A stretch of 39,017 nucleotides of DNA from Fidelibacterota bacterium (GTDB taxonomy: Bacteria; Fidelibacterota; Marinisomatia; Marinisomatales; UBA1611). Position 1 is the first letter of the stretch, and every line of letters begins with the position of its first letter. The notes beneath the pieces were generated by a model. The model ran no database searches. It was not told the DNA's origin and worked only from the letters and a program-made list of their open reading frames with translations. Below, piece by piece: positions 1 through 14,359 of the stretch. The position numbers were made by a program, and so were the translations under genes. Location: positions 1 through 39,017 of the forward strand of contig JABHGY010000012.1 in assembly GCA_018671775.1 (NCBI GenBank). Reading direction: 5' to 3'.

Positions 1-954
1 ATGTCAAAATTATTAGAGCAAGTCAGCGATAAAATCCGCTTAAAGCATTATAGCCATCGAACAGAAAAAACATATAAACACTGGATAAAACACTATATTT
101 TATTCCACAACAAAACACATCCTGATAAATTAGACGGTAAAGCACTCAATGCCTATTTAACTTATCTCGCCAAGGAAAAACATGTATCTGCATCGACACA
201 AAATTTGGCAAGAAATGCCATTCTTTTTTTATATAAACAGGTTCTCAAAAAAGACATAGGGGATTCCAAAAATTATGTCATTGCAAAGCGTTCTAGAAAA
301 GTGCCAACTGTCTTTTCTCAAGATGAAGCTAAAAGAGTCATTGCGCAATTAGAGGGTCGTAATGCATTGGTGGTTAAATTACTGTATGGCACAGGGATGC
401 GCATTTCTGAATGTTTACAGCTTCGCATCAAAGATATAGATTTTGACCAAAACCTCATTGTAGTTCGAGATGGCAAAGGGGAACAAGATCGCGTAACGAT
501 GTTACCTGAGACATTAAGAGATTTAATCAAGCATCAAATAGAGCGAGTGGCTTACTTGCATGCATTAGACCAAAAAAATGAAGTTCCTGGCGTTTTTATT
601 CCATATTCGATTGAAAAAAAATATCCTAGCGTGAGTAAAGACTTTGGCTGGTATTTCTTATTCCCGGGAAAATCATTAAGTAAAGATCCTATAACCGGAA
701 TTATTAGGCGCCATCATGTTCACGAGTCTAATATTCAACGTGGCGTAAAAAAAGCAATCAAAATGGCAGAGATTTACAAACAAGCAGGATGCCATACTTT
801 TCGTCATTCTTTTGCGACACATTTATTAGAAAATGGCTACGATATTCGGTCCGTACAAGAATTATTAGGACATAAAGATGTTCGTACGACGATGATTTAT
901 ACGCATGTCATGCAGAAAGGACCTTTGGCGGTTAAAAGTCCATTGGATAAATAA
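1..954 (+). CDS. intI: Integron-type tyrosine recombinase (IntI-like integrase)
   Basis: 317 aa. Tyrosine recombinase motifs (LLYGTGMRISECLQLRIKDIDF, HTFRHSFATHLLENGYDIRSVQELLGHKDVRTTMIYTHV). Contains the IntI-specific insertion region (KDFGWYFLFPGKSLSKDPITGIIRRHHVHESNIQRGVKKA) and the C-terminal SPLDK typical of integron integrases. ORF begins at base 1, so the exact start is unverified. Confidence 0.93.
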   Translation: MSKLLEQVSDKIRLKHYSHRTEKTYKHWIKHYILFHNKTHPDKLDGKALNAYLTYLAKEKHVSASTQNLARNAILFLYKQVLKKDIGDSKNYVIAKRSRKVPTVFSQDEAKRVIAQLEGRNALVVKLLYGTGMRISECLQLRIKDIDFDQNLIVVRDGKGEQDRVTMLPETLRDLIKHQIERVAYLHALDQKNEVPGVFIPYSIEKKYPSVSKDFGWYFLFPGKSLSKDPITGIIRRHHVHESNIQRGVKKAIKMAEIYKQAGCHTFRHSFATHLLENGYDIRSVQELLGHKDVRTTMIYTHVMQKGPLAVKSPLDK

Positions 955-958
955 TGTG

Positions 959-980
959 CCACGACTATCCTTAGTCGTGG
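959..980. repeat. REP-like palindrome: 9-bp stem CCACGACTA / TAGTCGTGG, loop TCCT
   Basis: Perfect inverted repeat read directly, starting 5 nt after the intI stop. Could also act as a 3' stabiliser/terminator. Confidence 0.85.
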
Positions 981-989
981 AGTTTAAGC

Positions 990-1007
990 ACAAGCACGGA
1001 TGCTTGT
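990..1007. repeat. REP-like palindrome: 7-bp stem ACAAGCA / TGCTTGT, loop CGGA, followed by TCCAC
   Basis: Perfect inverted repeat read directly. Opposite orientation to the 959-980 palindrome (BIME-like pair). Confidence 0.8.
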
Positions 1008-1060
1008 TCCACAGTTATTGGTCGTAGTTTACGTGCATAGGAACAGCTTGAGTTATAGAA

Positions 1061-1150
1061 ATAAACGATAAGGGGTTTGTGCCATAATCATCCTTGATTG
1101 TGTTCATAAACGATAAGGGATTTGTGCCATAATCATCCTTGATTGTGTCA
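1061..1150. repeat. Two 45-bp direct repeats (1061-1105, 1106-1150), each containing a CATAATCA-TCCT-TGATTGTG palindrome
   Basis: Unit ATAAACGATAAGGG(G/A)TTTGTGCCATAATCATCCTTGATTGTGT(TC/CA) occurs twice in tandem with very few differences. Confidence 0.9.
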
Positions 1151-1153
1151 ATG

Positions 1154-1173
1154 AACGAGAAGGGATTCTCGTT
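1154..1173. repeat. REP-like palindrome: 8-bp stem AACGAGAA / TTCTCGTT, loop GGGA, followed by CCAC
   Basis: Perfect inverted repeat just upstream of the RAYT start codon. Confidence 0.85.
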
Positions 1174-1191
1174 CCACTTTGAAAGGAAAAA

Positions 1192-1815
1192 ATGAAAAGG
1201 ATATATCAAAGAGATTTACCTCACATTCAACCCCCTGGATCGACAATTTTTATCACATTTCGATTAGCGGGGAGTTTGCCTAAATCAAAAATAATTGAGA
1301 TAAAAAGCGATTTTGAGCGATTAGCAAAAATAATAAAATCAAATACTTTAAATAAAGAGCAAACAGTGAATGAACAGTTTTTACTGATTCAAAAGTTTGA
1401 TAAGTATTTGCATGCTTCCGTTTCGGGACATCATTTTTTAAAAGAGCCAAAAATTGCAAAACTTATCTGTGATACAATACACTTTCACGATGGAATACTG
1501 TACCAATTATTTGCATATTGTATCATGCCAAATCATGTTCATCTCGTTTTAAAACCAAATCCGATTGATGATGAAAATGAGATCTTACTGGAAAAAATAA
1601 TGCATAGCCTTAAAAGTTATACAGCTACCGAAGCGAATAAAATTTTGCAAAGGAAAGGACAATTTTGGATGCATGAAAGTTTTGATCATTACATTCGTTC
1701 TCAAGAGAGTTATGAGCGCATTATCAAATATGTGATGGATAATCCTGTGAAAGCAAATCTCGTTAAAAAATCATCAGATTGGCCATGGTCATTCAAGTGG
1801 CACAATCATCCTTGA
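1192..1815 (+). mobile_element. REP-associated tyrosine transposase (RAYT; Y1_Tnp/TnpA_REP family)
   Basis: 207 aa. HUH motif in YCIMPNHVHLVLKP, RAYT-like C-terminal region HESFDHYIRSQESYERIIKYVMDNPVKANLV...WPWSF. Flanked on both sides by REP-like palindromes. Confidence 0.92.
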
Positions 1816-1820
1816 TTGTG
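1801..1820. repeat. REP-like palindrome: 8-bp stem CACAATCA / TGATTGTG, loop TCCT, overlapping the RAYT stop codon
   Basis: Perfect inverted repeat; RAYT stop TGA at 1813-1815 lies in the hairpin. Confidence 0.9.
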
Positions 1821-1822
1821 TT

Positions 1823-1962
1823 CATAAACGAGAAGGGATTCTCATTTCACAATAAACGAGAAGGGATTCTCATTTCACAATAAACGAGAAGGGATTCTCA
1901 TTTCACAATAAACGAGAAGGGATTCTCATTTCACAATAAACGAGAAGGGATTCTCATTTCAC
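1823..1962. repeat. Tandem array of five 28-bp units (AATAAACGAGAAGGGATTCTCATTTCAC), each with a GAGAA-GGGA-TTCTC hairpin
   Basis: Units at 1823-1850, 1851-1878, 1879-1906, 1907-1934 and 1935-1962, identical except the first base pair of unit 1. Confidence 0.97.
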
Positions 1963-1972
1963 AAGGATTCTT

Positions 1973-4063
1973 CTACAGATTCTCAAGCGTAAAATTAGCT
2001 CTTTGTTTTTCAAAAAGCACCGCAAGAACCTTTACGCTTACTTTGTCACCTAAGCGGAATTCATGTTTTGTTTTTCGTCCCCGGAGACAATAGCGGTCTT
2101 CGTCGTAAGCATAATCATCATCTGACATGGTGTCGATATGGATTAAGCCTTCAGCTAAAGATGATTTCAATTCTACAAAAATTCCAAAATTAACCACACC
2201 GGAAATTCGCCCTTCAAAGGATTTGCCAATCCGTTCATTGAGCCATCGCAATTGTTTCATTTTGATATATTCCCGTTCTGCCGACAATGCTTTCAGTTCC
2301 ACTTCATTCGAAATCATAATCGATTTTAGCATGAGCTCTCTCCATGCTTCTGCTTCTTGAATAGATTTATTGCAAAGCATTTTTATCATGCGATGAACCA
2401 TGAGATCTGGATATCGTCGAATGGGCGATGTGAAATGGGTATAATGATTGAATGCCAGTCCAAAATGTCCTTGATTTTTCATGGAATATTCTGCTTTACT
2501 CATGGTGCGCAATGCCACATTTTCGATAAGAGATCGATAAGGCGAATCTTCTACATGTTTTAGAACGTTTTTAATGTCATTCGGTGTGAGTTCCCCTTTT
2601 GGAATGTGAATACCCAAATTAAGAATTTTAAGTAGATTTGTAAATCGAAGCACATCCTTTTGATCTGGGTCTGCATGGACGCGATACACAAATGGATATT
2701 TTTTCGGCAGTTTTTTGGGGATTTCCTCCGCGACCACACGATTGGCTAATAACATACATTCTTCCACAATTCGATGGGATGCCATCCGTTCACTGGGACG
2801 AATTTCATGGGGAATCCCTTTTTCACCCATTTCAAAAATAGGCTCGGGAATATCAAAATCTATACTCCCAGCTTCAGAACGGTTTTTGAATAATTGTTTC
2901 GCCAATCGCTTCAAGATGAGAATATCATTTTTGAAAGGGTGATCTTTCTTGCCTTCAAGAATATCTTCCACATCCTGATATGTGAATCGTGCTTTACTGT
3001 TGATAACCGTAGGCAAAATATCCGTTTCCATAATATTAAAATCTTTATCCATTTTCATAATGGCAGATACGGCCAATCGATCTTCATTAGGCCTAAGAGA
3101 GCAGAGATTCGCCGATAATGCTTCCGGTAACATGTGGACCACGCCTTCTGTGAAATAAACCGAAGTGCTACGCTGGATGGCCTCCCGATCAATACATGTA
3201 TTTTGCTTTACAAAATGGCTTACGTCTGCAATATGAACGCCCAAATCATACCCATTCTGATTGCGTTTAATAGAAATGGCATCGTCAAAATCTTTTGCAT
3301 CTACAGGATCGATGGTGAATGATGTCCATTTTCGTAAGTCCCGCCGGTTTGGGATTTCTTGAGTAATGTGCTTTTGACTAAAACACTTCACTTCATCCAC
3401 GACTTTTTGTGGAAATGCCTGAAGATAATCATATTTACTCAGAATCATTTTCATATCGTTTACCGGGTCTTCCGCCTTCCCAATAACGGTTTGCAATTCT
3501 GCAATGATGGGTTCTTCCAAGGATCCCCAATCTTTGACGTGTGCTTTTACTATTTGCCCTTCGCCCAAATCTTTTTTCGCTTTGATGAGCCGAATTCCGC
3601 GCCCAGGATTCACCGGCGAAATCGTCATGAATAATTTCCCCATATATTTATAGGTAACACCGATAAAAGAGTCTGAACCACGCACTAAGACTTTTTGGAT
3701 CCGACCTTTCAATCCTTGAGGACTTGGACGTCCTTGCAATTTCACGCGGACATGATCCCCATGGATGGCATCGGCCATGGACCGGCGACCGATGAATATA
3801 TCTTCTGAATCATCGTCAGTGATGACAAAGCCAAATCCTTTTTGGGTTACGGTGAGACGACCTTCAAATTGATTCTGTTCTCGAGGGAGAGTATATCGTT
3901 TTCCTTTCACTTGAACAATTTCCCCAGACTGGACCCATTCATTCAGTAAACTTTTAACCCCAGCTATTTCGTGCTGTTTTACCTTCATCTTGTGGAAGAT
4001 TTCTTTTTGCCGAAGTAATTTCCCCGGGTTTTTATTAAATATGGATAATAGTCGTTTTTTCAT
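1973..4063 (-). CDS. rnr: Ribonuclease R (RNB-family 3'-5' exoribonuclease)
   Basis: 696 aa. RNB signature (TSFTIDPVDAKDFDDAISI, GVHIADVSHFV, HYTHFTSPIRRYPDLMVHR) and C-terminal S1 domain (GVVNFGIFVEL). Confidence 0.95.
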   Translation of the reverse strand: MKKRLLSIFNKNPGKLLRQKEIFHKMKVKQHEIAGVKSLLNEWVQSGEIVQVKGKRYTLPREQNQFEGRLTVTQKGFGFVITDDDSEDIFIGRRSMADAIHGDHVRVKLQGRPSPQGLKGRIQKVLVRGSDSFIGVTYKYMGKLFMTISPVNPGRGIRLIKAKKDLGEGQIVKAHVKDWGSLEEPIIAELQTVIGKAEDPVNDMKMILSKYDYLQAFPQKVVDEVKCFSQKHITQEIPNRRDLRKWTSFTIDPVDAKDFDDAISIKRNQNGYDLGVHIADVSHFVKQNTCIDREAIQRSTSVYFTEGVVHMLPEALSANLCSLRPNEDRLAVSAIMKMDKDFNIMETDILPTVINSKARFTYQDVEDILEGKKDHPFKNDILILKRLAKQLFKNRSEAGSIDFDIPEPIFEMGEKGIPHEIRPSERMASHRIVEECMLLANRVVAEEIPKKLPKKYPFVYRVHADPDQKDVLRFTNLLKILNLGIHIPKGELTPNDIKNVLKHVEDSPYRSLIENVALRTMSKAEYSMKNQGHFGLAFNHYTHFTSPIRRYPDLMVHRMIKMLCNKSIQEAEAWRELMLKSIMISNEVELKALSAEREYIKMKQLRWLNERIGKSFEGRISGVVNFGIFVELKSSLAEGLIHIDTMSDDDYAYDEDRYCLRGRKTKHEFRLGDKVSVKVLAVLFEKQRANFTLENL

Positions 4064-4516: not shown

Positions 4517-5464
4517 TCATTTTCCTTTGAAAAAGTTTTTCAGCACATAAGAAATAATTTTTGGATTTTCTTTAAGACGACGCACTGAATAATCGAACCA
4601 AGCAGAACCAAAAGGCACATAAATCCGAACCGTATATCCTTTTTTGGCTAGAGATTCCAAGCGCCCTTCCATGGGCACGCCATACAAAACCTGGAATTCG
4701 AATTGGTCTTTTGGTATATTGTTTTCTGCCACCCAAGATTCAATTTTACTGACGAGGGTCAAATCATGCGTCGCGATGGCGCAATAACCCGATTTTTTGA
4801 TAACCGCTTGGACTAAGCTAAAAAAATGTTCCGAAATCTCCGTTTCGCTTTGGTAGGCAATCTGCTCCGATTCTTGATATATCCCTTTACAAATACGTAC
4901 ATTAAAATCTGATGCACTCAAACGATGGACATCATCCATACTTCGATGTAAATAGGCTTGAAGCACAATGCCAGTTTGGGCGTGAATACTTTTACAATGG
5001 TCGAGGAGTTCAAACGTAGCGTCAGTATAGGGAGAGTTTTCCATATCCAATCGTAAAAAGTTATCCGTATTTTTTGCGGCATTTGCGATGAGATGAACAT
5101 TCGCCATGGTTTCAGCCAAAGAAATAGACAAGCCAATGTGAGTGGGCTTAATGGAGACATTACAATCAAGCTTTTCTGCTTCTATGCTTGCGTATAAATC
5201 GCAATAGGCTTGGGTAATTTTTCGAGCTTCTTCTTTACTCTCAACATGTTCTCCTAAAATATCAATAGTGGTTTTAAATCCTTTTTCATTTAGGGCGCGG
5301 ATATGATACTTTGCTTCTTCAAACGTTTCGCCAGCTACATAAGGGTTTGCAAAAGGTCGCACAAACCAGCGAGGAAGGATAGGGAGGGCAGTAGCGATGA
5401 TTTTATTGAATAAAGCCACATAGAAAATTACACTTTTCTTTGGAATGGAATCAAAATGTTTCAA
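4517..5464 (-). CDS. Proline dehydrogenase (monofunctional)
   Basis: 315 aa. TIM-barrel ProDH features: DILGE, LSIKPTHIGLS, LRLDMENSPYTDATFELL, VRICKGIYQE, IATHDLTLV, FQVLYGV. Confidence 0.9.
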   Translation of the reverse strand: MKHFDSIPKKSVIFYVALFNKIIATALPILPRWFVRPFANPYVAGETFEEAKYHIRALNEKGFKTTIDILGEHVESKEEARKITQAYCDLYASIEAEKLDCNVSIKPTHIGLSISLAETMANVHLIANAAKNTDNFLRLDMENSPYTDATFELLDHCKSIHAQTGIVLQAYLHRSMDDVHRLSASDFNVRICKGIYQESEQIAYQSETEISEHFFSLVQAVIKKSGYCAIATHDLTLVSKIESWVAENNIPKDQFEFQVLYGVPMEGRLESLAKKGYTVRIYVPFGSAWFDYSVRRLKENPKIISYVLKNFFKGK

Positions 5465-12811: not shown

Positions 12812-14359
12812 ATGGAATCAAATTTATTAAGTCTATTGGTCTGGTTACCGGTGATTGGATTAGCGGCAATTGCTCTTATGCCACGGGACAAAACAAAAGA
12901 AATTAAGCTTATTGCCGCATTGGCAACGGGCGTTCAACTTGTGATGGCTTTGGTCTTATGGGCAAAGTTTGACCCGGCCATTGCTGGAATGCAATTTGTA
13001 GAGCGGGCAGAATGGATTCCCTCCTTTAATATTGCTTACATTTTAAGTGTAGATGGTCTGAGCTTGCCTATGGTGATTTTAACGGCTTTGCTCTGCTTTA
13101 TTGGTATTTTTGTTAGTTGGAAAATTGATTATGCCGTAAAAGGATATTTTGCATTATTCCTTTTATTAGATACGGGAATTATGGGCGTATTCGTTTCGGG
13201 TGATTTGTTTTTATTCTATATTTTTTGGGAAGTCATGTTACTCCCTATGTATTTCTTGATTGGTATTTGGGGTGGCCCGCAACGAGAATATGCTGCGATT
13301 AAGTTTTTTCTTTATACCTTATTCGGTTCGGTTCTCATGCTCATTGGAATTTTAGGGCTTTACTTTACTTGTGGACAAACGTTTGATATTCAAGCCTTGA
13401 TACAAAATGCGCCAGAGATGTTACAGGGTGTTTCTTGGTGGGGAATGAGTGCGATTAAAGTGATTTGGGTCCTACTCTTTATTGGGTTCGCCATTAAAGT
13501 GCCCGTGTTTCCCTTTCATACTTGGTTGCCCTTGGCGCACGTGGAAGCACCGACTGCCATTTCTGTTTTATTGGCTGGGATTTTGTTGAAGCTCGGTGTT
13601 TATGGTATCTTACGTTTTAATTATGGTCTCATGCCTGATGGAGTTTGGTGGTTTGCTGGTGCCTTGGCATTTTTGGGATTGATTAATGTCATTTGGGGTG
13701 GACTGTGTGCTTTGGCACAAACGGATTTAAAAAAACTGGTCGCTTACTCCAGTATTAATCACATGGGATATTCTCTGATTGGGATGTCTGCTGTGATTGC
13801 AGCAGGGTCTGCAAATGGTGCAAATACAACAGCGGCACAAGCGGGATTGGCTGGCGCTGTTTTCCAAATGTTTAATCATGGAACTATTTCGGCTATGCTC
13901 TTTATTTTGGTCGGAGTCATCTATGATAGAGCGCACCACAGAGAAATCAATGGTTTTGGTGGATTAGCAAAACAGATGCCAATTTATACTGGTATTACAG
14001 CATTGGCTTTTTTCGCTGGCTTGGGCCTTCCGGGGTTTTCAGGATTTATCAGTGAAGCCATGTGTTTTATTGGTGCCTTTCCTGTTTTTAAAGGTATTGT
14101 AATCGCTTCAACAGTAGGAATTTTATTGAATGCAGCTTATTTCTTGTGGGCTTTTCAACGCATCTTTTTTGGTGAGTTAAATGAAAAATATACAGATTTA
14201 CCTGAAATCAATAAAATGGAATTATTTACTGTGATTCCTTTGGCTGTGATTACGATTATTTTGGGAGTTTATCCGGCGCCTTTTATTAATCTTGTGAAAT
14301 CAACACTTAATTTAATGATTGATATGGTGGCTTCCGGCTCACCCATCGCAGGCATGTAA
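12812..14359 (+). CDS. nuoM: NADH-quinone oxidoreductase subunit M
   Basis: 515 aa; FYIFWEVMLLPMYFLIGIWGG, FPFHTWLPLAHVEAPTAISVLLAGILLKLGVYG. Confidence 0.98.
   Translation: MESNLLSLLVWLPVIGLAAIALMPRDKTKEIKLIAALATGVQLVMALVLWAKFDPAIAGMQFVERAEWIPSFNIAYILSVDGLSLPMVILTALLCFIGIFVSWKIDYAVKGYFALFLLLDTGIMGVFVSGDLFLFYIFWEVMLLPMYFLIGIWGGPQREYAAIKFFLYTLFGSVLMLIGILGLYFTCGQTFDIQALIQNAPEMLQGVSWWGMSAIKVIWVLLFIGFAIKVPVFPFHTWLPLAHVEAPTAISVLLAGILLKLGVYGILRFNYGLMPDGVWWFAGALAFLGLINVIWGGLCALAQTDLKKLVAYSSINHMGYSLIGMSAVIAAGSANGANTTAAQAGLAGAVFQMFNHGTISAMLFILVGVIYDRAHHREINGFGGLAKQMPIYTGITALAFFAGLGLPGFSGFISEAMCFIGAFPVFKGIVIASTVGILLNAAYFLWAFQRIFFGELNEKYTDLPEINKMELFTVIPLAVITIILGVYPAPFINLVKSTLNLMIDMVASGSPIAGM

Follow-up and report, generated by a model that had tools for sequence, protein, structure and literature searches.

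What kind of element is formed by palindromes that surround a transposase-like gene of a Fidelibacterota bacterium, and that combine a constant loop and flank with stems of apparently unrelated sequence? An earlier note on this DNA, here referred to as the window (the whole analysed stretch of 39,017 nucleotides), had placed four such palindromes around a RAYT gene and had proposed that recognition by the RAYT is confined to loop and flank, while the identity of the stem is free and whole stems are diversified or swapped. Our analysis indicates that the locus is very probably a REPtron, composed of a RAYT, i.e. a derivative of HUH Y1 transposases, and its own BIME- or REPIN-like head-to-head REP pairs; further pairs of this family are scattered over the genome.

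All four palindromes are present, although the third extends over 1153-1174 and is thus one base pair longer than described. They pair perfectly over 9 bp (959-980), 7 bp (990-1007), 9 bp (1153-1174) and 8 bp (1801-1820), in agreement with their reported self-complementarity, and each contains the NGGA loop, which reads TCCN in the orientation used for REPs. Seven further copies in the window include one G-T wobble each (1083-1102, 1128-1147, and five in tandem within 1826-1962), and altogether 11 GTG-tagged hairpins are found around the single RAYT (Table 1). Their common plan in REP orientation is 5'-GTG(G/C/A)-9 nt arm-TCCN-arm, with stems of 7-9 bp, a loop of 4 nt and z-scores for folding as single-stranded DNA between -3.7 and -6.0. 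The flank was thought to end always in (G/C)CAC; CAC is indeed invariant, corresponding to GTG at the hairpin foot in 11/11 window copies, but the fourth base can be G, C or A, the full GTGG tag being found at 1801, 1153 and 990 and GTGC or GTGA in the other copies. A palindrome is strand-symmetric except for its loop and flank, and reverse complementing the CCAC flank yields GTGG, one form of the 5' tag of classic REPs (GTAG/GTGG). REPs are defined by a GTRG tetranucleotide located 5' of a palindrome (PMC3686654, PMC3733652, PMC6006769), and the combination of a variable palindrome with a constant GTRG tag is part of this published definition (PMC3686654). The contrast with classic REPs drawn previously therefore disappears, as the flank is simply the other strand of the tag.

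Table 1. Positions of the RAYT gene and the REP hairpins in the window
Feature	Position	Strand	Sequence in REP orientation	Remarks
RAYT / TnpAREP	1192..1815	+		207 aa; NF047646, Y1_Tnp, HUH and Tyr by alignment, 4er8
REP, class A	956..980	+	GTG-CCACGACTA-TCCT-TAGTCGTGG	ssDNA fold z -5.5
REP	988..1012	-	GTG-GAACAAGCA-TCCG-TGCTTGTGC	head-to-head with 956-980
REP	1079..1103	+	GTG-CCATAATCA-TCCT-TGATTGTGT	unit 1 of 45-bp repeat
REP	1124..1148	+		copy 2 of the 45-bp unit begun by the REP at 1079..1103
REP, class B	1153..1177	-	GTG-GAACGAGAA-TCCC-TTCTCGTTC	head-to-head with 1124-1148
REP	1797..1821	+	GTG-GCACAATCA-TCCT-TGATTGTGT	overlaps RAYT 3' end
5 tandem REPs, 28-bp period	1826..1962	-	GTG-AAATGAGAA-TCCC-TTCTCGTTT	degenerate tag GTGA

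Such hairpins are clearly more frequent than expected by chance. Perfect hairpins with a TCCN loop and a stem of at least 7 bp occur four times in the window, whereas 60 dinucleotide shuffles contained 0.17 on average and never more than 2; if the GTG tag is included the comparison is 4 versus 0.017. Like REPs of the GTAG superfamily, they have a 5' tag that is followed within 0-2 nt by a palindrome with a stem of about 6-13 bp and a short loop, exist in multiple dispersed copies, and form inverted dimers (BIME/REPIN); the fourth base of the tag, however, is not always G. The previous description of the palindromes as REP-like and belonging to the RAYT, with loop and flank as their most constant parts, is thus confirmed.

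This does not apply to the view that the stems share no sequence. With arms anchored on tag and loop, between which the distance is 9 nt throughout, 4/9 columns are invariant in the arms of the four perfect palindromes (A3, C4, A6, A9), and across all six REP types of the window A3, A6 and A9 of the arm are common and 13/25 REP columns are invariant. The window arms contain 10.7 bits of information, compared to 5.8 bits in permuted arms. In REPtrons elsewhere, arm position 4 is a C in 27/28 REP types and positions 5-6 are purines in 28/28, in a set that was read by hand from RAYT loci elsewhere in the order and in other phyla and from which one more hairpin (locus L032) with a different spacing was omitted. 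The arms of these REPtrons contain 6.4 bits versus 1.5 bits for permuted arms, where it should be considered that the 28 types are related and were picked for a GTR tag and that the permutation P value ignores phylogeny. Differences between stems are compensated: 98.3% of cells are paired versus 24-50% in slid controls, a figure partly built in by choosing the hairpins for pairing, and 8/9 stem pairs show changes on both sides. Covariation, for which the earlier note had suggested a test, consists of single compensated base-pair changes. Stem differences are accounted for by two REP classes per pair and by compensated base-pair drift around a conserved C-R-R (CRR) core, and nothing indicates that whole stems were swapped.

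Copies outside the window contig further illustrate this. A degenerate pattern derived from the window REPs yielded 30 matches in the genome, compared to 5 for a reversed control, and a covariance model yielded 31; perfect hairpins with a wholly different stem could escape both searches. About 20 REPs are spread across 10 other contigs, usually as one class A and one class B REP arranged head-to-head. Arm positions 2-9 of class A read CACGAATA in 8/10 dispersed copies, and the class B arm reads CACGAGAA in 7/9. Stem identity is therefore not free; it was foreseen that conserved stems with variable loops would speak against this idea, and while the stems are conserved, so are the loops. Pairs with the tags on the outside are located on contigs C4 (two), C75, C76, C82, C107 and C110 and in the window. 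Contig C82 contains a cluster related to the REPs linked to the RAYT, including a copy identical to the class B REP of the window (13871-13895). Five of the dispersed A/B pairs are separated by a homologous 32-nt spacer, and some pairs (L048, L055, L068) also have about 40 bp on one side in common. Dispersal may thus have occurred at least partly as part of a longer repeat, and movement driven by the RAYT stays putative. One locus (L146, G000:C63, approximately 5353-5406) shows a 'double-foot' REP, GTGGCACGAGAA-GGA-TTCTCGTGCCAC, that carries a tag on each strand. The genome contains about 31 copies in total; for REP-rich genomes copy numbers above 100 are usually quoted.

The RAYT protein scores 79.6 bits against the NCBIfam model NF047646, just 0.4 bits short of the curated cut-off of 80, and also matches the Y1_Tnp domain. 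Alignment identified the HUH motif as H115-V-H117, the catalytic residue as Tyr180, and the Y---NP signature (Y180, N184-P185). W159, D165, H166 and R169 align with W94, E100, H101 and R104 of the tag-recognition region of the E. coli protein; D165 resembles subclasses 2.5 and 2.7 of Quentin et al. By sequence, the only solved structure matched by the RAYT is that of E. coli TnpAREP, 4er8 (E 3e-5), and a fold search with its AlphaFold model (pLDDT 78.5) retrieved the same entry (E 4e-7) as the sole PDB match with an E value below 0.001. This structure shows TnpAREP in complex with a REP hairpin. As expected for a RAYT, the gene is flanked by REPs and present in a single copy, a search of its own genome yielding only one match. 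The REP at 1797-1821 supplies its last codons and stop. In the related RAYT genes L031 (3378-3426) and L038 (3379-3570) REPs are located within the coding region, a situation also known from TnpAREP subclass 2.4 (Quentin et al.), in which REPs lie inside the RAYT gene.

Homologous RAYT loci were found in many phyla. RAYTs with 32-53% amino acid identity in other genomes are associated with the same plan of GTR tag, 9-nt arm and short loop, and a single gene is often accompanied by stems of two classes facing in opposite directions. A survey of relatives with a first model (R1) was circular, as REP-rich genomes had supplied its training sequences, and was replaced by a model built solely from REPs of the own genome (R2). 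With this model, at least two REPs were detected in 4/7 other genomes with a close RAYT, compared to 2/53 genomes without (P = 0.001). Two genomes of the same genus contained neither REPs detectable with this model nor a comparable RAYT; in one of them (G002) only a weak, stop-riddled match was seen. We also searched for an empty site using the RNase R-like gene (RNB domain) encoded at 1973-4063 on the minus strand, for which no match was found in six relatives including the two of the same genus, either because the gene is missing there or because the search did not reach it. A corresponding search via intI led to REP-free neighbourhoods, but these differed in gene context.

The constancy of loop and tag might nevertheless suggest that the RAYT reads these parts only and that a separate mechanism exchanges stems. 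Across 20 REPs the GT of the tag and the T of the loop are invariant and the CC of the loop is almost so, while the stems covary, and for group 3 TnpAREP enzymes specific loop bases are essential, the tag guides the choice of cleavage site, and the effects of altered stems are moderate (Corneloup et al. 2021, PMC8266576). Reading of loop and tag with tolerance for stem changes is thus already published. The same experiments, however, showed that the central and upper stem influence cleavage, and REPtron stems retain C4 and the purines at positions 5-6. Considering also the two conserved stem classes among dispersed copies and an information content of the stems far above that of permuted arms in the window as well as in other REPtrons, we regard a system with free stems as very unlikely; the locus is a real but ordinary REPtron whose REPs are modest in number, and a free-stem RAYT need not be assumed.

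The neighbourhood of the locus raises the question of whether the hairpins are attC-like recombination sites. The contig opens with the ATG of an integron integrase gene (window 1-954; TIGR02249, 432 bits), which ends just ahead of the GTG of the first REP, and integron integrases act on attC sites in folded, single-stranded form (PMC8266576). Yet R''/R' boxes (RYYYAAC...GTTRRRY) are absent from the hairpin flanks when compared by eye, hairpins are present on 10 other contigs although the genome encodes a single intI, and RAYT loci of many phyla bear them. Moreover, hairpins of this type are missing directly downstream of the intI genes of G001 and G039, which show 86-88% identity. A role as attC sites is thus hardly conceivable. 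The integrase copies at this level of identity belong to a genome of the same genus and to another family of the order; attI and cassettes, if there are any, would fall outside the contig. It is also extremely unlikely that the hairpins are intrinsic terminators or RNA structures acting solely on transcripts. They are located at gene ends, and for one of the 11 a weak T-rich tail is seen on the minus strand, but no terminator match was obtained for the other 10 window REPs, an Rfam search of the hairpins was empty, and the strand-specific tag, the fixed spacing and the head-to-head pairing would be left unexplained. A secondary role at the transcript level is possible, as for other REPs.

For the REPtron we propose the following mode of action, which relies on analogy with TnpAREP of E. 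coli, S. maltophilia and Marinomonas. Anatomy, conservation and dispersal of the REPs and the homology of the RAYT are documented by the sequences, while binding, cleavage and mobility are inferred. The working strand reads 5'-GTG(G)-stem-TCCN-stem, and when it is single-stranded the RAYT would bind the REP hairpin by contacting the tag, the loop and some of the stem. GTGG might act as guide for the cleavage dinucleotide, which is predicted to be CA or CC from Marinomonas GTGG mutants; with GTGG substrates, group 3 enzymes cleave at these two dinucleotides (Corneloup et al. 2021, PMC8266576). Cutting and rejoining of REP single-stranded DNA by Tyr180 could then lead to the spread of pairs.

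In most respects the locus resembles described systems. REPs of the GTAG superfamily (Di Nocera et al. 2013, PMC3733652) also carry the tag at one end, with GTRG/GTGG variants, have stems of mostly 6-9 bp, a short loop and complementary stem changes within families, and form head-to-head dimers flanking the RAYT; the window REPs differ in the looser fourth base of the tag and in the TCCN tetraloop. The group 3 REPtrons Sm and Mb share the perfect palindrome and short loop, with GCT and TTTA instead of TCCN as loops (PMC8266576); essential loop bases, a guiding tag and partial tolerance towards the stem sequence, established there by experiment, would be further common features. S. maltophilia REPs (Nunvar et al. 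2013, PMC3686654, Table 2) likewise have perfect stems of 8-9 bp directly at the GTRG, and orthologous RAYTs are associated with differing REPs, but they show high copy numbers and GC-rich stems. Among the Stenotrophomonas REP classes printed in that study, 11/13 contain the C-R-R core, offset by 1-2 bases in the tag frame. Several REP subfamilies are associated with nearly half of the surveyed RAYT genes (PMC6006769), and in the E. coli BIMEs a single RAYT is likewise combined with unlike REP classes (Y and Z) in inverted pairs (PMC6006769). The E. coli REP stems are longer and bulged, whereas the fold of the E. coli protein (4er8) matches that predicted for the RAYT.

It is tempting to speculate that the mobile unit of this RAYT clade is an obligate pair of unlike REP classes serving as distinct ends, and that RAYTs of many phyla recognize one common code (GTR tag, a loop 9 nt away, C-R-R at arm positions 4-6) while other stem pairs drift by compensation, but we consider this rather doubtful. 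The regular pairing of two classes is of interest in itself, and the CRR core together with the constant spacing across phyla represents a testable recognition rule, not a new system. Our analysis adds GTRG REPs and RAYTs for a lineage for which we found no description in the literature consulted, and the related REPtrons provide a comparative test bed in which fixed positions (tag, spacing, loop and CRR core) can be distinguished from drifting ones.
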